From the NCBI RefSeq assembly GCF_026151205.1, contig NC_087079.1:18160945-18224944 (forward strand): a stretch of DNA of 64,000 nucleotides, written 5' to 3'. Below are positions 15,480-31,300 of the stretch, in pieces (the first letter of the stretch is position 1; each line of letters opens with the position of its first letter). The notes under the pieces were generated by a model that was given only the letters and a program-made list of their open reading frames with translations, did not search any database and was not told the origin of the DNA. The position numbers and the translations under genes are program-made. The DNA is from Bolinopsis microptera. Lineage: Eukaryota; Ctenophora; Tentaculata; Lobata; Bolinopsidae.

Positions 15480-16210
15480 ATTTTGTTAGTTATCTATTTC
15501 AGATATGCACCGAAAAGGTTTATCACGAAGGTTTATTTTGATATGTTACCTTGGTTACACTTTAAATTATTTTGTAAAATAGACTGTAATTGTACATAAT
15601 CAAATTCACATAATCAAATTTATATTGCACCACAATGAATATAAAACTGTTTTAATTTGAGCGGTCATTTTACATGTTAACAGATGTAAGTTATTAAACT
15701 TGAAAAGAAAGTGGTAAAAATCGGAAAATTTCAAAAAAAAGCGTACCACTGTTTTGACTCCGCTCAGAATTTCTCTGGGTAGAAAATCAGACTATATATA
15801 TACTATTTATTTATAAATACTACTAAATATTAAGAATCTTAAATCTTAAAGATAAACTTGTCATATAAAATTACATATTAAGAATCTTAAATCTTAAAGA
15901 TAAACTTGTCATATAAAATTACATTTATGCACTGAAGAATTAGAATGTTATCTAAAAGTTTATTTGATAATATGTTACCATGGTTAAATATGTAAAATAG
16001 AATGTAATTATACTGTCACACATATTGTAGAGTCAAACATAAAATATTCTACCACCTGTTGAATATAATATAAGCTGCTATAATATCTGCGGTCATTTTA
16101 ACAAATGTACTGTTAAACTTGAAAATAGAAAGAGTTTTAATTATGAATATGATGATTTCTAAAAACCGCGTACCACCGTTTTGACGTTGCTCAGAACTAC
16201 TCTAGACCGC
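15480..16210. repeat. Diverged tandem duplication of a ~450-bp block, with a 49-bp direct repeat
   Basis: The block around 15530-15790 (ggtttattttgatatgttacc ... gcgtaccactgttttgactccg) is echoed around 15955-16205 (gtttatttgataatatgttacc ... gcgtaccaccgttttgacgttg). Between them, 15838-15925 holds two exact copies of a ~49-bp AT-rich segment. No coding frame is seen. Confidence 0.6.
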
Positions 16211-17300
16211 AAATCATGCATGTTTTTGCAATTTTTTAAACAACGATTGACGCTGAAGCTCGAGATTGAAAATATCAACATCAATCAAACAATTATGCTC
16301 AGCTATCCTTTCTCACAATCTCAATTTAGACATCATTTAGATCTCTCGTCCCTGCCACCTCTTCCAGTTCACCTGAAATTTACATTTTTTTAAAAAGGCA
16401 GCAGACAGCAAAATCAGGGTAAATAACTAGTTTCTGAATAATCTGATTTAATCTGTCATCTATACTAATAATCTCGATAAATATGCGTGTGTCTGTCTGT
16501 AATTTACGAATGGTTAAATCAAGAAAACGGTAAGAGATATGGGACTGGGTTTTTTTTCGGTATAGTGCTGCCAAAACTCTGATGAAGCCAAATGATTAAG
16601 GTTTTTTAAATCGGCCAGTGGTAAGTGGTTTAATTGATCATTTTGTGACCCAAATGTGATACTAAAGTGTGTCACTTTCTCTCCCACTCTCGCTCTCTCT
16701 CCCCTCATAACAGATTTGCTATATGATTAGATAACTTGGCAGTTGACCTCAAGATTGCCTATCAAGTATTAGTATTATATACATGGGGGAACTCAGAATT
16801 AAATTGCAGTTTGTTATAAATTGGACTGAGCGAGTTCAAACTTTCGCACCGTTTTAACTACGAAAATGTAATGCGTGTTCTCGAATATACTAATATAATA
16901 GGCGGCTTGGAGGGGGATATTTAAAACATATAAGTGATACGAAAGATTGTATTAGCAGGAGCTTTCAAAATACTTGTGTAAATCGTTTTCAACTGAGGAT
17001 GATGTTGTGAAGGGTGATTATATATGATGTAGTGGTGTCAATGATGAGTGGTGTGACGGAGTCTAGAACATTTTTTAGAACATTTGAATATAATTTGAAA
17101 CATTACAGAAATGTTGTACAAATCGCTCAAACACACACACTCGGTTTTAATTCGGTAAAATTCCATTCGAAAATTAAATGATTCTCAAAATGTAGGTGTC
17201 TAATGAAAATATGATACTGTGTGACAAAGTTAAGTATGTCGTAGTGAAATAGAGTTAACTGTCGATAAAATCATGTGAGGTACTATCGAAGTTCAAAATG
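16210..17300. other. No gene recognised
   Basis: This is AT-rich DNA without convincing reading frames. A block at about 16450-16640 (containing aatatgcgtgtgtctgtctg) has the look of a short interspersed repeat, but its ends were not defined. Confidence 0.35.
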
Positions 17301-18086
17301 TTGTGATGGGTGACATGATAATGACTGATAAGAAAAAGTTTTCATGTCAACTGTGCCAAATCCATAACAGTGTGATGACTGTCAAAGTGTCTACCACTAG
17401 GTACTTGGACGAACAAGTGTACCCGAGGTGTTCTGAGAGAATAAGGGGACAGGCTCGGGAACACGAGCGCGCGCTAGCCGCTAGGGCAAAAAAGTGAAAT
17501 GCACAGTAAGCAAGTTAAAAAACGGAAAATTAAAATGCCGTTTGGGCCAAATGCAGTGAGCCAGTAAGGTACGGTTGTAGGAGCAAGTGGCTCTGAATAC
17601 TAAAACTGATGAGGCTGATGCTGAAAATGAAGACTGAAAGAGGGGGAAGCAAAGGGGAAGGACAGGATGCAGGGGGACAAGAAAAAAGAAACAAGAGTGG
17701 AGACAAACCACCTGCTGAGGTCTGGCTAAAATCAGAATGCAGTGAGCGGCCCATGTAACATAATCGTCCGTGGCAGTCTACCCCGTACGCAGACTACGGT
17801 CCAAGATTTCAGGCGCCAGAATACACCTTTTGGTGCAGAGCTGGTCACGACCAGGGTCCTCTCGGATACCCCGTCTCGGAGGTCGGGCCAATGGAGCGAT
17901 CCATTTCTGTACTGACAACCATTGTAACCCTATCACTCTGAAGGCCCCACAGTTCCTACATGGACGCACGGCCGGAAGCCCATGTAGGGACGGAAAGTCC
18001 CAAGAGTCGCTCATAGCATCCGTCACAGATCCAAAGCAAGAGGAGAAGGAAAGGAAGAACGAGAAAAGCAAAAAAGAGCTGAAGGA

Positions 18087-21000
18087 CTACTTTCCATCTT
18101 CATCACGAAGGCTGTCTTTGTGCTTGAGGTTCAGACTGTACATTTCTCTGATGGTTGAGCATGAAAGTCTAATCAAGTTCACATCCTGCTCGTTAAGGTT
18201 ACCGTAAAGATCTTGGGTACGAGAGAGAGTGTTGACAATGTTGGTCAGTCCGTTGTCATTGCTGTTTCCCAAGCTTTCACTAGCTCTGGTAAACTTGTCT
18301 CTGATAGCCTTCCCTTGTGGGCAGGAAGTGAGAAAGTGTGTTTCATCCTCTATGATCCCGGTTGATCCTTTCAGTTCACAAAAGGTGCAAGTTCTGCTCT
18401 CTAGAGGTGTGTTTTCGTATCTCCCAATTTCTATGCTGAGTCTGTGAGAACTGCACCTTATTTGAGCTGTTGATCTTCTGTCATCGAGAGTTCTTGCATA
18501 ATCTAGGTAAGGCTCCCATGCAAAGACTGTTTTGACGTCCTTGTAGAAAGTGAGTTTCCTGCTCTCGTTAATCTTTGATCTCCAGGAGTCTGTAAACAGC
18601 TTTTGAAAGTTATTAACCAGCTCGTCTGGACTGCAAGCGTCTGCAAACGCAGTTGCATTGAGTAAAAGCGAAGAGTTCCTTGCATATGTTCTAGGATCAA
18701 TGTTGTTGAAGCACTTGATGATGTTTTCTATTCCAGAGTACCACGAAAGATGCAAGTTTACTTGCTCAGTCATAGCAGCCTTCACCAGTTGAGACGATGG
18801 AAGACACATTATCCTTTTGAAGTATTTGACACTTAGTTTTAATACTTCGATCAGTAGTGGGTACGAACCTGTCTCACCCCATGCAGTTGCATTGGTAGCC
18901 CGTCTGTTTATCCCAAGGAGGAACTTCAGGTGACGTAGGTGAACCTGCTCGATTTGTTGCTTTGCCATGTGGGTCATTGAGTTGTTCAAGTTTTGATCCC
19001 TCATGAGGCACGAAAGAACTTTTGTTACCTCTGGAAGAGTGGGTGCCCAGACTTGGCAGCCGTACAGTAAGATGGGCTTAACCAGTGAGTTGAAAAGCTT
19101 GTGGAAGCATGAGGCGTCAACAAATCTGCGATCGATTGTGCTTCTGAGGCTGAAATATGCTCCAAGCCCTTTGCGGTAAAGAGAATCAGTGGCTTGTCGG
19201 AATTTACCATTGCTACTGATAAGAATACCAAGATAGCAGTAGTGGGAGACCATCTCGATGTCGTTGCCATGTGCTTTGGGACGCCAACTAGGGGTATCCG
19301 GAGCTTTACTGTTGAAAACCATAAACTTGGTTTTGGATATATTGATTTCCAGTCCCCAGTTATCGCAGTACGTCGTGATGATCGTGATTAGCTTTTGCAG
19401 TGATTCTTGGTCAAGGGCAAGAATGACTAAATCATCAGCCCAGGCTAGATGAGTTACTGAAAGTCCTGCAAGCATGGGGCAGTTGGCTAGGGCTTCGTTG
19501 AGGAGATCAGAGAGCTCTTTGAAGTACACCTTGAACAATTCTGGACTAAGAGGGTGACCTTGCTCTGTCCCTTTCAGGATACTGAAGGCTTCACTGATTT
19601 TGCCATTGATCTTTATATGTCCTTCCGACTTGCTGTACATGTCTTTGATGATGTTGTAGAACCCACCATTAACACCATAACATGATAGTTTGAATAGGAG
19701 GGCCTGTCGACATACAAGGTCAAAGGCTTTACGAAGGTCAATGAATATAGCAAAGACCTTCTGTTTCACTCTCTTGTACTTCTCAATGATCGACATCAGA
19801 GTGAAAATGTGATCATTACACTGGCTCCCTTTGGTGAATCCAGCTTGATTGGGGGGATCTGAATGTGTCGTTTGCCGGTGTGTGACAAGTCTCGATAGCA
19901 GCATTGTTGACAATAGCTTGCCAATGCAGCTGCAGACTGCAATAGCTCTGTAGTTATCGGGGTTTCTAATGCAGCCTTTCTTGTGTAACGGCGTTATCAC
20001 GCTTTTACTCCAAAGATACACACCTGTGGTCAAACAGAGATTGAAAAGTTTAAGAAGTAGATTTCTCATGTTCTCGTTCAGGCTTTTGATCATCTCGTTA
20101 CTGACATGGTCAAAGGATGACGCTTTGCCAGTCTTCAGACTGTTGATGGCACCGTTCAGCTCTTCAATGGTGAAAGGGCTGTTCAAAGCTTCGTTTGGCA
20201 CGGATCCTTTAGCAAACGTGTCAGCTTCTTCAAGAAGGGCTTTCTTAGTAAGACTGTCAACAGTTGGGTGGGAGTCGGAGTAAAGATCAGCATAGAAATT
20301 CTGAAAGGTTTGGAGCTGTTCGGGATCGGTTTGAACCTCATCTTTCTTAAAGTTCTTTAATTTCTTGAAATCCCGCCAAGAGATAGCTTTACCATTCTTG
20401 ATTTTTTTGTTCAGTCTTTTGAAGAAGTCATCCTTCTTCTTATTGATGATCTTCCTGTAACTTTTCGAGTTGGCACGGTGTCGGGTTTTGATCCTTTGAC
20501 TGTCGGGGTTGTCGCCGACAACTTTGATTGACCGCTTGAAGAGTCGCCTGGCTGCATGGCAATGACCATCAAACCAAGAATCGAACTTTGGTTTAGGATG
20601 CTTTGCTTGCTTAGAGACACCGAGTTCTCTTTTTGCCAGGCAATTGATGAGATCAGTTATCTTGTCACTCAGTTCTTTCACCCCTTGCTGGGTTGTCGGG
20701 ATAGCGTCAGCAGCATTGTGCAAGTTCGAGATTCTGTTGACTATATCTGGCTCCTCGAACGACTGGGCGAAGTTGAGTAAACTGTTGTCTGAGACCTTGT
20801 ATCGGAATGGAGCGTCATCATAACGGAGGGTGGGATCTCCAGGTGTTTGAGTGTTCATCACCGAATGCTGCTTCCGCAAGCTGAGAAGAACTGGGTTGTG
20901 GTCCGAGTACAAGGTGTGCTCACCGACTGTCAGACTTCTCACTCTATGAAGGAAGTTGGAAGATGCTATGAAATAGTCCACTACGCTGTTGCCATTCCAC

Positions 21001-21728
21001 TTGAAGCAGGTGTACTTTCCAGTGGAGTCCCCAATGGTACGTCCATTCAGGATGAGTAGGTTTTCTGATCCGCAAAGGTCAAGAAGTTGCTTCTTATGAC
21101 TATTAGTGCACTTGTCTTCACTCCATCTGCTCTTTGATATTGGTGCAGAATCAGGAACTATCATGGCCTGGGAAGTTCGGCCTGTTTCTGGGAATAGCTC
21201 GAATTCTTCAGCTCTGTCGTACAACAGCAGCTTGGTTGACGAGCCTATTCTGGCGTTGAGATCACCAACAAGAAGAAGTTCATCCTCGGGGGTCTCGCGG
21301 AGATTGCTAATTTCTGCTTGGAGAGCTTCAAAATTGGCCTCCGAGTTGTTAAACCGACCCTTCTTCGAGCTGTTTGCTGGTGGTATGTAACTGTTCACCA
21401 GAAAGGTGTTAGTTTTAGTTCCTGGGTTCGTGAATTTGACAATAGTCATATTCATAGAGAGATCTTTAGTTAGATTGGTGTCAACAGCTGAGCAGTACTT
21501 CAATATCGAGTTTTTCACCAATGTGGTGACACCACCACCTCTCCCAGTCTTGCGTGTGTTGTTGTATGATTTGTATCCTTTCAGAGACACTTCACATCCA
21601 GTTTCTTGGAGGCAGATAACGTCGTGAGGTGTGATAAAATCGAGAAAGTCTGGATCTTCTGTCTTGTTACCAAGCAGGCCATGGATGTTTGCTACGTTCC
21701 AGGAGATAATAGAGTTAGCAAAGTCCAT
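18087..21728 (-). CDS. LINE ORF2: APE endonuclease - reverse transcriptase polyprotein
   Basis: This intact 1213-residue frame begins MDFANSIISWNVANIHG. APE endonuclease motifs are ICLQETG (near residue 39), LLVGDLNARIG (near 149) and YSDHNPVLLSL (near 275). Reverse transcriptase motifs follow: NYRAIAVCSCIGK, AIFIDLRKAFD (near 657), GTEQGHPLSP and AWADDLVILA (near 763), with the catalytic Asp residues present. A CCHC-like knuckle (CTFCELKG ... HFLTSC) sits near residue 1111. The enzyme nicks target DNA and primes reverse transcription there. All catalytic motifs are intact, so the copy may be active. Clade assignment beyond APE-type non-LTR is not possible by eye. The motif LLGINRRATNA downstream of the RT is shared with many invertebrate LINEs. 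Confidence 0.93.
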   Translation of the reverse strand: MDFANSIISWNVANIHGLLGNKTEDPDFLDFITPHDVICLQETGCEVSLKGYKSYNNTRKTGRGGGVTTLVKNSILKYCSAVDTNLTKDLSMNMTIVKFTNPGTKTNTFLVNSYIPPANSSKKGRFNNSEANFEALQAEISNLRETPEDELLLVGDLNARIGSSTKLLLYDRAEEFELFPETGRTSQAMIVPDSAPISKSRWSEDKCTNSHKKQLLDLCGSENLLILNGRTIGDSTGKYTCFKWNGNSVVDYFIASSNFLHRVRSLTVGEHTLYSDHNPVLLSLRKQHSVMNTQTPGDPTLRYDDAPFRYKVSDNSLLNFAQSFEEPDIVNRISNLHNAADAIPTTQQGVKELSDKITDLINCLAKRELGVSKQAKHPKPKFDSWFDGHCHAARRLFKRSIKVVGDNPDSQRIKTRHRANSKSYRKIINKKKDDFFKRLNKKIKNGKAISWRDFKKLKNFKKDEVQTDPEQLQTFQNFYADLYSDSHPTVDSLTKKALLEEADTFAKGSVPNEALNSPFTIEELNGAINSLKTGKASSFDHVSNEMIKSLNENMRNLLLKLFNLCLTTGVYLWSKSVITPLHKKGCIRNPDNYRAIAVCSCIGKLLSTMLLSRLVTHRQTTHSDPPNQAGFTKGSQCNDHIFTLMSIIEKYKRVKQKVFAIFIDLRKAFDLVCRQALLFKLSCYGVNGGFYNIIKDMYSKSEGHIKINGKISEAFSILKGTEQGHPLSPELFKVYFKELSDLLNEALANCPMLAGLSVTHLAWADDLVILALDQESLQKLITIITTYCDNWGLEINISKTKFMVFNSKAPDTPSWRPKAHGNDIEMVSHYCYLGILISSNGKFRQATDSLYRKGLGAYFSLRSTIDRRFVDASCFHKLFNSLVKPILLYGCQVWAPTLPEVTKVLSCLMRDQNLNNSMTHMAKQQIEQVHLRHLKFLLGINRRATNATAWGETGSYPLLIEVLKLSVKYFKRIMCLPSSQLVKAAMTEQVNLHLSWYSGIENIIKCFNNIDPRTYARNSSLLLNATAFADACSPDELVNNFQKLFTDSWRSKINESRKLTFYKDVKTVFAWEPYLDYARTLDDRRSTAQIRCSSHRLSIEIGRYENTPLESRTCTFCELKGSTGIIEDETHFLTSCPQGKAIRDKFTRASESLGNSNDNGLTNIVNTLSRTQDLYGNLNEQDVNLIRLSCSTIREMYSLNLKHKDSLRDEDGK

Positions 21729-21799
21729 GATGAGGAAAGTTCAGAGAGGGACCTGGAGAGAAAAGAAAGAAGGTGAAAAGATGAAGAAAAGAAAAAGGA

Positions 21800-23110
21800 C
21801 TAACGAGAGCCTCTGGTGAAAGTGTTGTCGAGGCTGGTCCTGAAGTTGTCCATAATGACCCTGATACCCCTGTCGTTGAGCTGAGATCGGTTTGAGGTCA
21901 ACATGTAATTGTGAGGAAGTTCCGAATCTTCAGGAAAGAAGTTGGAGTTCTTGTTCTCCCGAGTTCTAGTCCAGAAGTCTGCTTTGTCTCTGTCATCTTT
22001 GAGAGTATGAATTGCCTCTGAGATAAGTTGTCTGGCTCTAAGTCCCCCTCCATCGGTTTGATTGCAGATGATTGGATGAGAGATGACCACCTTGCACTTT
22101 TGTGATGTTTCTCGGAGGATCTTTTCAGTGCTCTGGACAAAGGTGTTGATTAGGGAATCGCTCGGTTGGCCATTCGTGATGTCATGAGAACCAAGGTGGA
22201 TGTAAACTGCGTCTGGGTTTTTGTTTGATATCTCCTCAGCAGTTTCACCCAAACAGGAGCTGAGCTCGTCCCAGCTGCGTTTGTAGATCATGGAAACATC
22301 ATATCTCTTGGAGAACTCCTCTGACTTGAAACTCCGCATAGTTGAGTCACAAAGAAGGACCACTTTCGGTTTCTTCCGTGCTGATGATTTACTCAATCTT
22401 TTAGATCGATCAGATGAGTGTGTAGTGTTTCCATTTCTGGAACTGTTCCTGTGATCGGTGTTGATCCTCTCACTCCTTCTGTATGACTCTCTTTGGCCTA
22501 GCTCAGGAGGAAGACCGGGGATATCTCTGTTGGTCCTTGTCTTGCGCGGGGATCTCGGAACATGATTCTCATTCTGTTCGTGGGTCTCATTACTCGACCT
22601 CTTTCGGTAATTACTCCGATTTGATGATTTTGATGATGTTATGATGGCTAGGATCTCCTCAATTTTGTTGCTGTCCTCGCTTTTGAAGAAGCTATCATGC
22701 CATGCTTCTAAATCCCTTTTGATAGTCATAGTTTCGTTGAGGGTTCGAGTGAGGCCCTCTAAACTGCTTTGGGACTTTTCCAGAAGTAAGCTGGTATCTT
22801 GATTTGCTTTGGTTAGATTTTTCAAGAGGTCAACTCCGTTTGAACACGTTGTGGCGTTCTTGCAATCTCCCTTAGATTTATCAGCAGGCATATTGGTAAG
22901 CTTTAGTTCATCCAGATCTTTTTGCACTTCTCCTAGAGCTGAGCTGATAGAAATATTTGATTTTTCGATCACTGCTAGTCTGTTATCGATCAGACTCAGT
23001 TGTTCAGAGGACCCAGAAGTGGAAGTCTTGCGGATATACTGAGAGATTCTTTTTCTCCTAGCCTTTGGAGCACCTTCCGTACTAAGTTTCAGGAATTCAA
23101 GTTCTTTCAA
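21800..23110 (-). CDS. LINE ORF with SGNH/GDSL-hydrolase-like domain
   Basis: This 436-residue frame ends 71 bp before the endonuclease/RT frame. The N-terminal third is helical and charged (coiled-coil-like around residues 30-130). A basic Arg/Ser-rich linker follows. The C-terminal part, from about residue 247, looks like an SGNH fold: VVLLCDSTMRS (GDS-like nucleophile block), AVYIHLGSHDITNG (block III with Asp in place of Asn) and a late LNDRG in the place of the Asp-His block. The usual catalytic His is not evident. Esterase-like ORF1 proteins are known in CR1/L2-type LINEs, where they are thought to bind nucleic acid or membranes. Activity here is unproven. Confidence 0.7.
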   Translation of the reverse strand: MKELEFLKLSTEGAPKARRKRISQYIRKTSTSGSSEQLSLIDNRLAVIEKSNISISSALGEVQKDLDELKLTNMPADKSKGDCKNATTCSNGVDLLKNLTKANQDTSLLLEKSQSSLEGLTRTLNETMTIKRDLEAWHDSFFKSEDSNKIEEILAIITSSKSSNRSNYRKRSSNETHEQNENHVPRSPRKTRTNRDIPGLPPELGQRESYRRSERINTDHRNSSRNGNTTHSSDRSKRLSKSSARKKPKVVLLCDSTMRSFKSEEFSKRYDVSMIYKRSWDELSSCLGETAEEISNKNPDAVYIHLGSHDITNGQPSDSLINTFVQSTEKILRETSQKCKVVISHPIICNQTDGGGLRARQLISEAIHTLKDDRDKADFWTRTRENKNSNFFPEDSELPHNYMLTSNRSQLNDRGIRVIMDNFRTSLDNTFTRGSR

Positions 23111-23335
23111 GATATCACTGTTAGTTGCTTCGTCAAGGGATTTGATGTAACTTTCAATACCCTGAAAGCAGCTGTCCGATGTGATTCTATCCGACTCTCG
23201 TATCTTCCTCTTAACGTTAATAGACAGTTTTTGGGTTTTCCAAATAGTTTCTGATTATTCTGATTTGCGACAAATGATATTGCACTGTTAGGATAAACGA
23301 CGTTTCAAAGTAACAACTTCTTATTCATGCTCAAA

Positions 23336-24937
23336 TTATTTGTTATATAGTAGTGTTGAAAGTATTAAAAAAATCTTAACGTTAACCTTAGGCCGGGTAG
23401 TAGATGCCCTTGTCTTGAGAAAGTCCCCAGCGTTGGGCAGAGAGCTGGTAAAGTGGAACTCTGTCGGAGAGGTGCAGGTTTCTGGAATCGGGGCAGTCTT
23501 GGAGAGGTTATCCTCGGGGGCATTGGTGATGTAAGAAGTTTCGCTTGCTTCTGTAAGGTATCGACACAACCTTTGCTTGCAAATTGCTGCAGCACCGTCA
23601 ATAGCCTGTTTGCACGCTGTAAGTTCCTCCTTAACTTCTTTGTGCTTCATTTTGTTGATCAGCACACTCACAGCAGCGTAGTTTGGACTATCATAGGGGT
23701 CTTCAAGTAATACTTTTGCTCGGGTCTTCATGTCCTCAAGCGAGTCCTTGCTGGATGTGTGTTGCTCTAGAGCATCAAGCAGCAATGTGAAGTCCGCCTT
23801 GGTGAAGTTATCGAGTGTTTGCTGATAGATGTGAACCTGCCCAATTCTGTATCCAAGCTTGTTGGTTAACTGCGTTGGCCGGATACTGTTGTTGGGTAGA
23901 TCTTTTCCGTCCCAGGTCAGGGATTGCTCACGATAATCAGAGTCCGTAATAGAGCTGAAGAATAGGAGCCTATAGGATGGCTTGACAGCGTTTGTTTGTA
24001 AGTCAAAACCCACTTCTGACCGTACTTGATAACGTTTCAGAGTATCGCTTGACAGGAAAATAGCCGCTCCGTGATCAGGTGATAGCCGTCCTACATCTAC
24101 TTTTCCTAGATATGATCCAGTGTCGGTCCTTGGAATTATGTCGATTACATTCTGACGTCCAAGGCAGAGAATTGCAAGCGGAGAGTCTTCTTCGATGTAA
24201 GAATCGAGATCGGATGGGAATACCGATGTTTCTGGGATCTTGGAATTCATCTGAATTCTCTCGATGACGCAACTGTTGAGTAGATTTCCATTGATCAAGT
24301 TATTCTGTAGGATCTGGTTCATGCATTGAAGTAAGATAGGGATTTCCTTGAAGTCCTTAGTATCGTAAGTGTCCCATGGTTGGAATGGGTAAAATCTGGA
24401 GCTGAACAGGGCAAGCTCTCGTTGGTGAGGTCCATATTTACGAAATGGGACGTTACTTTCCGTTGACCACTGAAGAATGTCCGCTGGTTCCTTCATAAAC
24501 AGGGCTTTCTGGTGATATATGTCCCTTCTTGGTTCATCTGCGGTACTCTTTAGGTCAATTGAGATGTAACCCGGAGATGACGACAGATTCCTTATTCGCA
24601 TGCAGAGATCGAGATGGTTCGTGATTATTGGAAGCGAGTTCAGCTTTTTCACGATTGTGACCTCTTCACAAAAACTGAGACTCTTTTCTGTCGGTGTTAG
24701 TCTGCGAAGCAAATCCTCCTCCGGCTCTTCGTCATAATTGAACTTCAGATCTAGCTTTTCGACTTCGATAGGAGTTGGTGTTTCCTCGTATAGCTGTTCC
24801 GTATTGTTGTCACCCGGATCCTGTACTTCAGTTGAGCTCTTTCCCGCTTGCACAAGTTGCTGGTCTGCGGCAGTGTCATTCCCAGTCCCGGTGGTGGTTG
24901 TTATGACTTCGGAGGAAGTAGTAGATAAAGAGTACAA
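23336..24937 (-). CDS. LINE-associated ORF with a divergent AlkB/2OG-oxygenase-like domain
   Basis: This 533-residue intact frame has a Thr/Ser/Asp-rich N-terminus. From about residue 166 to 325 the order of motifs recalls the AlkB-like 2OG-Fe(II) oxygenase fold: RKYGPHQRELALFSS, LLNSCVIERI (near 220), PSDLDSYIEEDSPLAILCLG (near 240) and SYRLLFFSS (near 322). In active members the second block begins with His-x-Asp and a second His follows. Here the first His is Pro and no clear distal His is seen, so metal binding may be lost. The C-terminal ~200 residues are helical and unrecognised. The start overlaps the end of the membrane ORF by 37 bp. The similarity is a by-eye judgement; a structure-based search would decide. 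Confidence 0.5.
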   Translation of the reverse strand: MYSLSTTSSEVITTTTGTGNDTAADQQLVQAGKSSTEVQDPGDNNTEQLYEETPTPIEVEKLDLKFNYDEEPEEDLLRRLTPTEKSLSFCEEVTIVKKLNSLPIITNHLDLCMRIRNLSSSPGYISIDLKSTADEPRRDIYHQKALFMKEPADILQWSTESNVPFRKYGPHQRELALFSSRFYPFQPWDTYDTKDFKEIPILLQCMNQILQNNLINGNLLNSCVIERIQMNSKIPETSVFPSDLDSYIEEDSPLAILCLGRQNVIDIIPRTDTGSYLGKVDVGRLSPDHGAAIFLSSDTLKRYQVRSEVGFDLQTNAVKPSYRLLFFSSITDSDYREQSLTWDGKDLPNNSIRPTQLTNKLGYRIGQVHIYQQTLDNFTKADFTLLLDALEQHTSSKDSLEDMKTRAKVLLEDPYDSPNYAAVSVLINKMKHKEVKEELTACKQAIDGAAAICKQRLCRYLTEASETSYITNAPEDNLSKTAPIPETCTSPTEFHFTSSLPNAGDFLKTRASTTRPKVNVKIFLILSTLLYNK

Positions 24938-26442
24938 TCAAAAGGATCAAACGATTCTCTCCCTGGTCTTTTTGGATCGTCCTCATCGTCGTCACTGTCT
25001 CTTCCACCATTTGAGCTTCCAGTCTGAGACGAACCATGTTTTCCTTCACTACCAGAGTTGTGGCCACCACCTCCGCCGTTGTTCGCCGGTTGTTGGGAGC
25101 TGTTATTCTGCTCTTCCGAGCCATTGTGAGAGTTACCCCTTGAGTTACCATGATCTGGAACAGATTTCCCGCCTGGAGCTGAAGAAAGAAATGTGCAGGA
25201 AGAAGCAGGAAAGCTGCTGACTGGAGAACTAGAACAAGCAACAGAAATGACGAACGGAGATGGTACACGATGTCCAACACTAAATACTGGTCCACTGTAA
25301 TTGGTTTTTACCCGGCTTGCGCGGCGAGAAGAAACTTGATCAGCCGTGCTATCAGTATGAGTATCGAAAAAGGCACGTTCACGTTCGTTCTTGCGGCTAG
25401 GTACTGTGCTCGGTGTTTCAGACTTATACTCAAAACGGTAACGCCTGTAAGATAGCACGAACCAAAATTGGCGCGGATACGCAGCAAGCTCTAGTGGTCG
25501 ACACTTCAGCAGCTGCTCGAAAATAACGGTAAAAATGTGACAGTAAATGTTGGTAAGATCGGTGTTGAGGCAAGTGATGTGAAGAAAATATGAGTTGTTC
25601 GGGTCGTGAAGTAAGTCAAACTGCTCAAGAAAATTGTTGCCTATGTAGAAAAGTAAATAGTCGAAAAGAAGTGGCAGAAAGTGACTCCACAAAAAGCTCC
25701 GGCACTCGAGTATCAGCAAAATGAATGATCTAGTCTGTTCGAAAATGTGAGTTCTAAAAGTCTGGAGCTGGCCAGATAGGCCCGAAAGAGAGCGCGAAGA
25801 AGTCCGTTTACGTAGTGCTCGACCAAGTAGCAAGATAGCAAGCATCGTCAGGTACATCGAAGTTGACACGAATAGGGCAAAACACGCGAAATCAAACATA
25901 AAAATACACACAAAAATGTGCCCCTCGTGTAGCATGGTAATGGCTTGAGTTAATTGTCCGAATGTTCTAGATCTATGCCAGTGAAAGAGCTTATCAACAT
26001 CAGTGATAAAGGCCATAGATAAGCTGGCTAATTGTTCAGCTAGTAGGGTTGTATTCCGTTTCGAATTAGTTAGTTCACTGTCGTGGAAATGTTTTGTGCT
26101 CTTCCTTCGATTGCATGTGCCATGAAAATTGTATGGGTCCATGTTACAAGGGCCTGGTGGCACTAAAATGAGTAAATCGGAAGATTTAAACATATGTTCG
26201 AAATCATTTTCGTTGAGTTCTAATTGTTTGATGTAAAGTTTGATTTGTGAGTTAACCGTTAACGTCCGATGTGTGAGGAAGCTCGAGGGAAGAAATTCCG
26301 AGTAAAATCGTTGAGATTCCGATGTGTCGCCCCTGGTAGACAGTGCTACCAGGGCAAGAGTAAGTAGGGTAAGTAGCGACGTTGTTAGCTGATAAGAGAA
26401 AGCGATAAAACGACTCAAATTCAACTTGCAAATGATATACAC
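24901..26442 (-). CDS. LINE-associated membrane protein ORF, unknown family
   Basis: This 513-residue intact frame starts MYIICKLNLSRF and has a hydrophobic leader at about residues 12-38, consistent with a signal peptide. A ~35-residue hydrophobic block (residues 174-210, ending in LLLGRALRKR, a positive-inside anchor) and a second hydrophobic zone near 240-275 follow. A possible N-glycosylation site (NTT) lies near residue 130. The tail (from ~415) is Gly/Ser/Asn-rich and ends in an Asp/Glu run. It is the first of four collinear ORFs of the element. It could be an envelope-like or other membrane protein captured by the element, but no homolog is recognised. The alternative is a host gene fragment that the LINE happened to adjoin; the overlap with the next frame argues against this. 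Confidence 0.5.
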   Translation of the reverse strand: MYIICKLNLSRFIAFSYQLTTSLLTLLTLALVALSTRGDTSESQRFYSEFLPSSFLTHRTLTVNSQIKLYIKQLELNENDFEHMFKSSDLLILVPPGPCNMDPYNFHGTCNRRKSTKHFHDSELTNSKRNTTLLAEQLASLSMAFITDVDKLFHWHRSRTFGQLTQAITMLHEGHIFVCIFMFDFACFALFVSTSMYLTMLAILLLGRALRKRTSSRSLSGLSGQLQTFRTHIFEQTRSFILLILECRSFLWSHFLPLLFDYLLFYIGNNFLEQFDLLHDPNNSYFLHITCLNTDLTNIYCHIFTVIFEQLLKCRPLELAAYPRQFWFVLSYRRYRFEYKSETPSTVPSRKNERERAFFDTHTDSTADQVSSRRASRVKTNYSGPVFSVGHRVPSPFVISVACSSSPVSSFPASSCTFLSSAPGGKSVPDHGNSRGNSHNGSEEQNNSSQQPANNGGGGGHNSGSEGKHGSSQTGSSNGGRDSDDDEDDPKRPGRESFDPFDCTLYLLLPPKS

Positions 26443-26686
26443 TATGTCCAGTGACCGATTATCGAGTTCAGCTCAGTGTAGATAGAACAAAACATGATTT
26501 TGTTGTGTGTGACGTGAAAGGGTGGAGTGGTGAGGGTGGAAAAAGTGTTCAGATTACATTACAATAACATTAAAAAACTAGGCTTGTGAGGTAGATGAAA
26601 AGGAAATGCCAGATGGCCTGGTCTTGAGGGATGAAGCGATCTTGGGAAGGATGGGGTCCCATAGTGAGCTACATTTAGGGGCACGA

Positions 26687-27421
26687 TCAGTACGGTTCAT
26701 GGAGGGTTGTCTTATCTGGATTCTGGATAGCAGCATGTTCTGTCAGGTCAAGTTGAGATCGTGTGGTGAGTGATTTAAGGACTTCTATGTTGTTCCAGGA
26801 GATGGAATGTCCAGTGGTTAGGGCATGATGGGCGGGGGCGGATTTGATCCTGTCTGTGGTTTCGTCGAAGGCATTGTTGAGTCTGTACTTGTAGCTTCGT
26901 TCGTGTTCTTTCATTCGTTGGATGAGGGGTCTGTAGGTCTGTCCAGTGTACTTGGAGGGACATTGTGAGCAGGATATCTCGTAGATGGTGTTGGGGATGA
27001 GTTGAGTGGGGGGTGTGGTCTTCGTGTTGGTGAGAAGGTTGCGGAGAGTAGTGGCTGATGAGTGGGTCACTTTGATGTCGTGCTGTCCGAGTATCTTGGA
27101 GATAGGTTTGGAGAGTGAGGGATGGAAAGGAAGGGAAACGCTGATTGCGTGATCTCTGGTCTGTCGGTAGAATGAGGCTAAGGATTGATGTCGGGGAGGG
27201 TTGGTGAACTTGCGGTGAACTTCGTCCATGATGGTGGTGATGCGGAGGGGTGGGAAGCCGTTCTGAAGGCAAACGTGTCTGACAGTCTGTAGTTCGTCTT
27301 CGAGGTGTTGAGGTGAACAGATGTTGTAAGCTCTTCTGGTGAGGGATCGGATGACGGCGTTCTTGGAGGAGTTTGTGGTGCAGGATGATATAATAGGCGG
27401 GTTTATACTTTTGCATTTCAA
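26687..27421 (-). pseudogene. Penelope-like element remnant: linker and GIY-YIG endonuclease
   Basis: A 244-codon frame begins within the region C-terminal to the reverse transcriptase (RAYNICSPQHLEDEL, NGFPPLRI) and continues into a GIY-YIG nuclease: IYEISCSQCPSKYTGQTYR near residues 147-165, then RMKEHERSYK and TTGHSISWNNIEV. This order is typical of Penelope-like retroelements. The reverse transcriptase that should precede it is missing above 27421, so the copy is 5'-truncated. It sits immediately upstream of the four-ORF LINE, on the same strand, and the junction lies between 26443 and 26690. Catalytic Tyr, Arg and Glu positions seem preserved. Confidence 0.85.
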
Positions 27422-27617
27422 ATGCGATAGAGCTATAGTAAAGTCCCGGCCGTAGGCACGGGTTACACTAGTATGTTATATACTTACAATGGCATGAAAA
27501 ATCGGAAATAATTACAAGTAAGTGCTTATATTAAACCTAGTGCTTATATTAAACCTAAAGCCTAAAGGTACATAACAATTCCAAAATGAATAATAATACG
27601 CACCTAATTTTCTTGAA

Positions 27618-28535
27618 TCATTTCCCGTAACACTCAATCAGTTCTCCTTCTGTTCTACTGAGCTCTTGTTTAACATCTTCATGCTGCTTGGAAACATTTT
27701 CTAGATCCTGCTTCAGACTCATCTCCGTATCTTCAGTGTGATCATTCAGCTTATTTTCTGCTGCCTCCACTTCTGTTTCTTTATCTTCCCGCTTATCTGT
27801 ATCACCAGCCCTTAGTTTTCCGATAGCCTGTGCTATCAAAGTAGAAACACACTCCCCAGTCATATCCACCTCTGTAACAGTTCCACTCCGGGATTGTTCT
27901 AATATCTCCTCCCACCCTAGAATACGAGCATCCTCGTGCTCATCCAGAAACATGTTACCACACATCCCACCTGACACCATCCTCCTCACTTCCTCCGCAC
28001 TCCGCAGACATTTCTTTAGCGTAGAAGTTCAAATAGAATAGTTCCCCTCCAAACTGGTGGGTCTTGTAGTAATCTCCTCCCCAGTTCCCCACTGTGAGTT
28101 GTCCCCCTGTCTTCAGCAGCCTGTCCGATCTTGTTGGCAGAGTGCCAAGCAGTCCACGTAGTACTTGTGAGAACTGGAAGAGGTACTCCAGACAACGCAC
28201 GTGTGGTACCACGTGTTCTTGGTCACGTGGAACTTTCTGGACATGTGAGTACAGGATCCTAGGATACAGACCCATCTCCCGTTATCCAGGAGAGTCAGCT
28301 CGTAGTGACCATAGTGGAGAATTGTAGGGTACTCCGAGGATCCAAGGGACTTGATCCACCCGCAAACGGACATAACGCGAGTGAATCGGCTGAAATCTGG
28401 ACGAAATTGGATGTAGCTATTTGGATCCTCGGTGAACTTGAGTGCTGTGAATTTCAACTGCAAGTTGTCATGATCAGGTGCACCAGATGATAACGCTATG
28501 AGAACAGTAAGAAACACGAACGGTAGAATCATCAT
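27618..28535 (-). pseudogene. Secreted pentraxin/LamG-like gene with two compensating frame breaks
   Basis: The protein starts with a signal peptide (MMILPFVFLTVLIALSSG) and continues as a concanavalin-like pentraxin/LamG domain: YIQFRPDFSRF, SVCGWIKSLGSS, NTWYHTCVVWS, then, after a frame change near 28150, LTVGNWGG and FGGELFYLNFYAKEM. A second frame change at 27993-28006 returns to the original frame for VRRMVSGGMCGNMF and a charged, coiled-coil C-terminal tail ending at TAA 27618. The second break is a perfect 7-bp tandem duplication (ctccgca twice). The first is equivalent to a loss of one base. No introns are seen. Either this is a young pseudogene or allele, or the two breaks are assembly errors. 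Family identification rests on motif order; calcium-binding residues were not checked. Confidence 0.6.
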
Positions 28536-28559
28536 CCACGTTTACTAACTGAAACTTTA

Positions 28560-31300
28560 CAAGGACGACTAGTAGTAGTACGTACTGTGGAAGAATTAAG
28601 AATTAACACTGTTATAAAAGTATACATTTTAAATATTATCATTCTTTCCCTGCATCGTATTACAGTTTTTACTTGATAAGTTCAATCAGAAGAATTGTTC
28701 CATTATTTTTCATATTACAACGAATTGTTATCAGATGAATACCCAGAGCTTCATTCTTTTTTATATACTCATATTGAGTTTACGACGCTGTTGTGTTGTA
28801 AAACCAATAACCGAACCCCTCCTCTGCCAATCCTGATAACCTTATCTGCAGCAGCCCAATCTACAGTTCATTAGAAGTCACCTTAGAACACCTTAGAACG
28901 AACAGATAAAGTAAAGGTAAGGCTAAAATTAAAAAGATTAGACGCATCTTGAAATCTGAATAAATGTTTTAACAAAAGTCGTTTGTCAACATTTAGATAT
29001 TGGTGATCATGACGTGACAGTACCGATTCAAACACTTTATCAAGCTTTGTGACTCTCCTCTTATGACACATAACGTAATGTATCATACATGCTACGTTGT
29101 CATTATTCTATGACATGATGAGAGACTATCAGGCGGTCTCCAGTTCACGTGACAACATTTTTTATCAGATTTAGCAGATCATGAAAGCAGTGATCATGTT
29201 TTTAGATGACCTTTTTTGTCTTAAAAACGGTTATTTTTTCGAATCATATGACCTGCTCATATTTTCAAAACTGTGTTCAGTCAAGTAACGTGTTTCGTCC
29301 GATATTACCCGAGATTTAACGTTTTCCCAAGAATCACGTGACCACTCTTTGTAAGTTAGTAAGACGACAGGACGGAATATTTTATTTTTGTCCCGTTATA
29401 TATATATTAATGTGTTCACAATATTCACAATATTCAATATTAGAGCTCTGACAATGAATGATCATGACCGATGTAATTGATAGAAATTCAAAAGATTTTA
29501 GAGTGCATCACCAACAATTCGAGATCTTTCTAACCACTTTACTGCCAATACTTTACTCTTTTATTACTACTCCTACATTTAAAAGTAATACAAATAAAAC
29601 CACGCCGCAAAGTGCAAACGTAAGTACATCTTACTTACTTTATCTCGTCCTGCATAACAAAATCGCAAGATTACTTTGTTACCTTATAGCTACTTGCACA
29701 CTTAATTAAAATTATGCATTGTTTTGAATTGGCATTTATTAATGTCTGGTTATTACCTCAAACGGTCTCGTTCAGAATGAATCTCAAATGTTTTCAAATG
29801 TTTTCAAATTTCCATTACGGCTGCTAGTTTATCATTGTGCAAGTGAAGCAGATGACCGAAGGTTTTAAAGCTCTTCGTTTGTTTCAGTAGTTTTTAAAGG
29901 TTGAGGTGTGAGAATGATACTTAGCCTTCAAGTTCGCTATATATTCGCGCTTATTTCATTATCAGTTTTCCTTTTTTACATAAATTTCATTTATACAGTT
30001 TCTGCACCGTCTGATACTGATAGTGATATCGATATTTTTTGTAATATAAATATTTTATAAAGTAATATTATATGTGTCTACTGAATAGTTAATATTTTAA
30101 TGCGAATAAGTGGTCCTTTATCACGTCCCAGCTCTATTTTGCTTGTCAACATAGTCATGATGATAAGATTGAAGATTAGCCGGCTGGTAGCCAGATCCAA
30201 TAGATTTCCATTGCGAATGGGCAGTAACTCATTTCCGTTTCTATTTCAATCAAAATATAAACTCTTGACTGATAAGATTGAATATTTTGGATAGTCTCGT
30301 GGAAGAGTGCTACATTTGAACAAATATGGGTTACAAAATTACTCTTTTTCTACATCTGAGTATAATCACCCTTCATAGTTCACCTCCTCCTAGAATGAGT
30401 TTATTAGATGAAAGCAAATAAAATAAAACTTTCAGATGTTAATTGAAGAAAAGTAAGTTAAAATAAAGTTTAGCAAGGCAAGTTGATGAAGCTCTATCAA
30501 TGGGTATTTGACGCATTACTAACAGTTTACACAGTTACAAAAACATGTCAGTAAAAACACGTAGTTCCTTTGAAAATTTTAAATACGAAAGCCATTGTCT
30601 CCTTACAGCACGTCAAAACACGGTTAAGTATATAGTTTAGTTTGGTTAGAAGAGTCCTCGTCAGTAAGCTTTACTATGGCTGCCAGCCCCCCCCCCCTCC
30701 CCTCCTAAGCTAAGTCCTGGCTGCTGGGAGGTTACCAACCAAATATTGGTAAGGTTTCCACGAAAGATAATTCGTATTCGATCTTGTTGCTTATTTCATG
30801 TTACATCGAATGTTACATCAAATGATAGAATGGCTAAGAATACAAGTTTTTGTACATGCCATTCGTTGAGATTTAAATTTGTCGAGGCTATCGTTTTTGT
30901 ATCCTCAAGTTTAACTTTGTCGCCCAACTGTCGCGACTTGATATCTCTTTAGGATACATCTTTTATTTTCGAATTGTCTTTCGTTGATTGTGGTTGATTG
31001 TGTTTGATTTTACATAGTTTCTAACTCTTATTTAATCATTTTCGTTGTTAAATCAATTTGGTGATTTATTTAAACGATTTATCATTGATAAAACAATGCT
31101 TTGACATGTAAAAGTGGAGCATAAACTCTGTGCAAAAGAGTAGTGATAGTAATGTCGTATCTAAACACATGTGGATTGTGGGCCGTGGACGTAAATACGT
31201 ATTTTTTAAAAATTATAATAAACAAAAACATGTATAAAACAATCAATAAATACAACAAGATACTTCGAACTAGATTAAAATAACTAATGACATGCACATT
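28560..31300. other. No gene recognised
   Basis: This is AT-rich DNA with short frames only. It includes a C-rich run at 30686-30706 (opposite-strand G-tract). A number of cacgtgac-type words occur around 29145-29345, but no structure could be supported. Confidence 0.4.

Follow-up and report, generated by a model that had tools for sequence, protein, structure and literature searches.

The window analysed here is a stretch of 64,000 nucleotides of the ctenophore Bolinopsis microptera (assembly GCF_026151205.1, contig NC_087079.1, positions 18,160,945 to 18,224,944). It carries a long interspersed nuclear element (LINE) with four long open reading frames (ORFs), A to D, on the minus strand. 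Frame D (18087-21728) is intact, encodes 1213 amino acids and matched Exo_endo_phos (1e-10) and RVT_1 (1.3e-33) in Pfam. Upstream of it lie C (21800-23110, 436 residues), B (23336-24937, 533 residues) and A (24901-26442, 513 residues); the Pfam scan of the window frames gave no match for A and B. An earlier reading of the letters by a model (the sequence-only reading) had described four frames with a 37-bp overlap between A and B and gaps of 225 bp between B and C and 71 bp between C and D, and had called D an apurinic/apyrimidinic endonuclease-reverse transcriptase (APE-RT). The frame coordinates and the Pfam matches bore out both statements. The element had also been proposed to be a LINE with four ORFs. 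Our results argue for two: A, B and C are most probably the pieces of one ORF1, and D is ORF2.

The continuity of the frames was examined in other copies from the assembly containing the window (264.65 Mb, 232 contigs). Copies are named by contig (C7, C12 and so on) and fetched loci of the same genome by L numbers. With window positions 24000-25000 as the first query, close copies came up on C7, C12 and C13, along with shorter ones on C10 and C29 and diverged relatives at 65-68% identity. In the C7 copy, which is 97-98% identical to the window copy, A, B and C form a single open frame of 1385 codons. The C12 copy is open across A and B (927 codons), and B and C are joined in C13, C10 and C29 (958, 737 and 730 codons, respectively). 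Alignment to C7 and C12 showed that a 55-bp segment is missing from the window copy at 24931 (24930-24932, minus strand) and is present in both of the other copies that cover the site. This loss puts A and B in different frames and is therefore seen as the 37-bp overlap; a programmed frameshift or overlapping genes were thus ruled out at this position. Between B and C, the window copy has gained 165 bp that are absent in all four copies compared (C7, C13, C29 and C10). The gain consists of a 153-bp dispersed repeat (23221-23373, plus strand) with an A-run at its right end, and of a 12-bp target-site duplication, TCTTAACGTTAA, whose copies stand at 23209-23220 and 23374-23385. When the 153-bp insert was searched alone, it gave 41 matches across the genome from the best 40 of 526 first-look candidates, many of them 97-100% identical and with the same ends. 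A short intron at 23221-23373 was ruled out by the dispersed repeat, the duplication and the A-run.

A single ORF1 was also found in a sister family (C4, C5, C6, C11, C12b and C10b), which is 65-70% identical to the window family at the nucleotide level in long matches. C4 and C5 each carry one ORF1 of 1392 codons and an intact ORF2 of 1209 codons, C4, C5 and C6 have a common 5' end, and the public gene model P0002 (1387 residues) has the layout of the single ORF1. All four frames, A to D, retain their coding pattern in the sister family beyond chance at about 65-70% nucleotide identity, and an excess of third-position changes indicates that coding is constrained from the hydrophobic helix in A onward. 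Because synonymous sites are mostly saturated between the families, ratios of nonsynonymous to synonymous substitution (dN/dS) were calculated within them, as plain ratios without a significance test. Between the window copy and C7, dN/dS was 0.364 for A (377 codons), 0.142 for B (518) and 0.25 for C (469), and between the window copy and C13 it was 0.206 for ORF2, so that all four values lie below 1. Between C5 and C12b, the AlkB-like and SAP-like parts together gave 0.174 and the N-terminus 0.518. Several observations speak against a single long ORF1. Within the window family, A to C are in one frame only in C7, and the whole ORF1 is present in only two of the six sister copies (C4 and C5); C6 has a stop in it, C11 is 5'-truncated, and C12b and C10b are broken elsewhere. 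Constraint is weak over the first 100 or so codons of A, a part that is interrupted by a stop in C7. Taken together, the comparisons point to a two-ORF, 9.4-kb non-long-terminal-repeat (non-LTR) retrotransposon with an ORF1 of about 1390 codons that was cut in three in the window copy, an anatomy to which we assign a probability of about 80%.

The limits of the element were set by copy alignment at 17064-26439 (minus strand), which replaces the 17500-26560 given earlier. With window positions 25900-26900 as the 5' query, the matches on C12 and C7 ended at 26438/26439, and whatever matched past 26439 came from a nearby Penelope-like element. The frame list had started A at a GTG at 26442, which falls just outside the LINE, so that piece A covers 24901-26439; its first in-frame ATG, a possible start codon, is near 26193. 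For the 3' query (17300-18300), 44 matches came from the best 40 of 129 candidates, and copy extent was then looked at in six fetched copies. C10, C13 and C29 are 5'-truncated and share the 3' end, and the 5' end before A is common to three copies on different chromosomes; common ends on both sides, named as a check in the sequence-only reading, were thus observed. Large internal deletions lie elsewhere in C7 and C12, and therefore neither is a whole element. The 3' end at 17064 has a tail of short repeats (ATGTTCT/A-run) instead of poly(A), which we take to fit the CR1/L2 group. The longest direct repeat in 16000-30000 is 24 nt, and there are no long terminal repeats. By-eye inspection of the flanks showed no obvious target-site duplication of the whole LINE. 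APE and RT in ORF2, the absence of LTRs, and copies that are shortened on the 5' side but end alike at the 3' side identify the element as a LINE.

Three minor observations concern the ends of the copies. With the 3' query, the window 3' end shared 98-99% identity with one set of copies and only 95% with C7, C12, C13, C29 and C10, whereas ORF C is 98% identical to these same five; a mosaic or subfamily structure is possible. At its 5' junction, the truncated C13 copy (L014) abuts tandem repeats of a unit resembling GATCAGACTCTG. A segment of about 66 bp from the 5' leader of the sister family (L017, 2554-2619) recurs at 91% identity in six or more other places where the remainder of the element is missing, and could be a 5' untranslated region shared with other families.

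From the N-terminus, ORF1 reads as a hydrophobic helix, an acidic linker, a degenerate AlkB-like domain, a SAP-like motif, a probable coiled coil and an SGNH-like domain. The helix (25861-25917, minus strand) has a mean hydropathy of 2.29 over 19 residues and is kept in both families; against its standing as a membrane segment, it is assigned by hydropathy only. A had been taken for a membrane protein, and of this the helix stands, as part of ORF1 and not as a separate protein. The SAP-like motif of B (23555-23653, minus strand) was placed by alignment to the relative P0003, which matched PF02037 at 1.5e-4 with 21.8 bits, below the 23.9 cut-off. The probable coiled coil of C (22691-23011, minus strand) was recognised by eye and by its position. 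The SGNH-like domain (21803-22366, minus strand) keeps the Ser (CDST); it aligned with the ORF1 end of the related element L045 at P=2.3e-6, and its match to the GDSL/SGNH family of Pfam was weak (7e-4, 20.6 bits, cut-off 32.9). The DxxH position reads NRSQ in the window, NKSQ in C7 and C13, and DQPH in C5 and C11. Of the esterase-type ORF1 that had been seen in C, the SGNH likeness and the Ser therefore remain, whereas the DxxH, which an esterase needs besides the catalytic Ser, is lost in the window family. Pfam scans of the ORF1 pieces and relatives gave no RRM or CCHC match.

AlkB-SGNH ORF1s recur in the genome of the window and in Mnemiopsis proteins, which by itself makes a ctenophore host probable. 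The genome was searched with PF13532, for which the best 150 of 587 first-look candidates were scored and the matches listed exceed the cut-off. Eleven of the 20 fetched loci (L032, L034-L041, L044 and L046) share one near-identical frame family, which is therefore a repeat. An AlkB domain followed by SGNH was called by Pfam in L035 (8.3e-6) and in L042 (0.0027, below the cut-off), which also has a PHD match. An APE-RT lies downstream in all three AlkB families inspected for it: by Pfam in L059 beyond L041 and L060 beyond L045, and by eye in the own sequence of L042. The nearest relative of the window element is L045/L060, whose ORF2 is 36% identical over 1109 residues, as compared with 25% over 428 for L059. 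Like the window family, it has a single ORF1 with AlkB, a SAP-like stretch, a probable coiled coil and an SGNH-like end; unlike it, the iron-binding motif is intact (EHSDNE) and the ORF1 frame has 777 residues. Pfam called AlkB alone in this ORF1 (2.8e-23), and its SAP and SGNH parts were recognised through alignment to the window family, the SAP-like stretch being collinear at a weak P=0.004. Human ALKBH3 was the closest solved structure for the AlkB domains of L045 (1.6e-14) and L035. A protein search with the L035 ORF1 gave 50 matches at E<=1e-8 from 4649 candidates. PF13532 was found in 47 of the 50, PF13472 in 14, and one combined PF13532 with RVT_1; all 12 matches with an organism name were hypothetical proteins of Mnemiopsis leidyi. 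In L033 (C12), L043 (C1) and L047 (C10), AlkB lies inside frames of 812-3388 residues, and in L033 Pfam placed SGNH before AlkB, opposite to the LINE order. These three look like another transposon class, for which Helitron-like would be our guess.

The relation of B to AlkB was tested by comparison of profile hidden Markov models. Against the AlkB domains of its own genome, B reached a probability of 70 and P=4e-5 over 149 columns, which correspond approximately to 24023-24511 (minus strand), as against 0.9 for the reversed control and 0.07-0.67 for 20 shuffles. Against 65 unique AlkB domains, P was 1.5e-4 with a raw score of 34.8, whereas the maxima were 21.1 for 50 template shuffles, 20.6 for 50 query shuffles and 17.3 for seven unrelated profiles. 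In a set of 12 proteins, BLASTP gave a match of 2.5e-4 between P0002 and the AlkB portion of L056. An alternative is that B is an unrelated domain with a chance profile match, the anatomy being otherwise the same. It would account for several results that weigh against an AlkB origin: B alone had no Pfam match up to E=10, PF13532 included, and no PDB match; two AlphaFold2 models of B were poor (mean pLDDT 37.2 and 34.0) and were therefore left out of fold searches; and P was only 0.037 over 38 columns against four near-identical L045-type AlkBs alone, and 0.25 for the AlkB part when whole ORF1s were compared with other AlkB-SGNH ORF1s. The alternative leaves unexplained the two broader profile comparisons with scores above all controls, the BLASTP match to L056, and the order of AlkB, SAP-like stretch, coiled coil and SGNH in L045, whose ORF2 is a closer relative. 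We regard it as unlikely.

B looks AlkB-related, and its residues look like those of a dead enzyme that is nevertheless constrained. The HxD motif, present in all 30 of the Pfam-selected AlkB loci inspected, reads PSD in the window. Its His is Pro in all seven profile sequences of B, and usual iron binding is therefore not expected. The distal iron-ligand His was not found at the expected place, a position that lies beyond the aligned columns. It is very unlikely that B works as a demethylase through non-canonical ligands, even though no other part of ORF1 is as constrained and the HxD Asp is kept in the window family; besides the missing His, C5 and C11 have Glu in place of the Asp. Of the earlier description of B as an AlkB-like protein, the kinship was thus retained by profile comparison, and the separate ORF and the first iron-ligand His were not.

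A true four-ORF LINE, in which A, B, C and D are translated separately and the overlap and two gaps are by design, has in its favour that all four frames are open in the window copy. It has become hardly credible, as the A/B overlap and the B/C gap are lesions absent from 2/2 and 4/4 of the other covering copies and A-B-C is one frame in C7, C4 and C5. That all frames are open and hence selected as separate parts of the element also fails with one ORF1 broken by copy-specific lesions; selection on A, B and C as integral parts stands. A and B as host or foreign sequence beside, or transduced by, a LINE that starts at C would fit their blank Pfam result and otherwise deserves next to no credence, since the 5' end before A is shared by copies on three chromosomes, A and B are in frame with C in the sister family, and the search with ORF C (window 22300-23150) gave six matches, of which one stops inside ORF C and the five whole ones (window copy, C7, C13, C10 and C29) all continue upstream into B. 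Copies beginning at ORF C, which the sequence-only reading had named as refuting, were thus not seen among these five, and A and B belong to the element.

Among the papers listed in full-text searches, outside of which lay subscription papers and Repbase, none describes a LINE ORF1 with an AlkB domain. In the part consulted of a survey of ORF1 domains in 448 elements, Table 1 has no AlkB and gives esterase ORF1s for vertebrate groups only (PMC4120745). The esterase-type (type IV) ORF1 of CR1/L2 elements such as zebrafish ZfL2-1 has a coiled coil followed by SGNH, as the window family probably does, and here too an APE-RT is in ORF2, according to the passages used (PMC3905857, PMC4120745); the window family differs by its length of about 1390 codons, the extra hydrophobic N-terminus, the AlkB-like and SAP-like parts and the lost DxxH. 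The ZfL2-1 ORF1 protein is described there as a coiled-coil dimer whose esterase binds liposomes (PMC3905857). An AlkB domain in a retrotransposon is known from Ty3/Gypsy elements of the orchid Phalaenopsis, where, in the sections consulted, it is shown in vitro to bind RNA and to demethylate it (PMC9289625). That element is of the LTR class and from a plant, and its AlkB is active, ALKBH5-like and encoded in an extra separate ORF. Bdelloid LTR and Athena elements have also captured SGNH/GDSL-type ORFs, some without catalytic residues; they belong to other element classes, and AlkB is not mentioned in the excerpt consulted (PMC5408684).

The ORF1 proteins of LINEs vary widely and are little understood. 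Every biochemical role proposed here for the parts of ORF1 and ORF2 is one that we infer. ORF1 may be one long protein that acts as a scaffold of the ribonucleoprotein, a role we consider possible and hold with some doubt. The hydrophobic helix, added to a layout of the ZfL2-1 type, suggests membrane anchoring; together with the C-terminal SGNH domain it would place ORF1 at membranes, where the coiled-coil-like stretch would multimerise it. The SAP-like and AlkB-like parts suggest contact with nucleic acid, which they might grip without demethylation, and ORF2 would perform target-primed reverse transcription. In the window copy, the 55-bp loss and the insertion of the short dispersed repeat have split ORF1 in three.

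For the relatives with an intact ALKBH3-like domain, the simplest role would be to free the template RNA of base methylation that blocks the RT. N1-methyladenosine (m1A) and 3-methylcytidine (m3C) block reverse transcriptases, and AlkB serves as a reagent against such blocks; erasers of N6-methyladenosine are reportedly linked to L1 control. Tentatively, and at slightly less than even odds, we propose that AlkB-SGNH is an undescribed and widespread class of ctenophore LINE ORF1, whose own ALKBH3-like demethylase would strip the template RNA of RT-blocking m1A/m3C, or of methyl marks that the host reads, before target-primed reverse transcription. The window lineage would be a later branch, in which the enzyme and partly the esterase have become a selected, catalytically dead binding module in a giant membrane-anchored ORF1. 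If true, retrotransposition would be linked directly to RNA methylation by an ORF1 class that brings its own AlkB-type demethylase, and the sister lineages with intact and degenerate AlkB would offer a natural comparison of enzyme and binding module. The window copy also illustrates that ORF counts from a single transposon copy mislead, two small lesions having made three plausible genes from one ORF1.

Outside the LINE, the end of the Penelope-like element occupies 26502-27421, 62 bp upstream of the LINE 5' end, with a sharp repeat boundary at 26502 and a GIY-YIG-like frame (weak Pfam match, 0.024). Farther upstream, at 27618-28535 (minus strand), frames judged by eye resemble a secreted LamG/pentraxin-like host gene with several exons.

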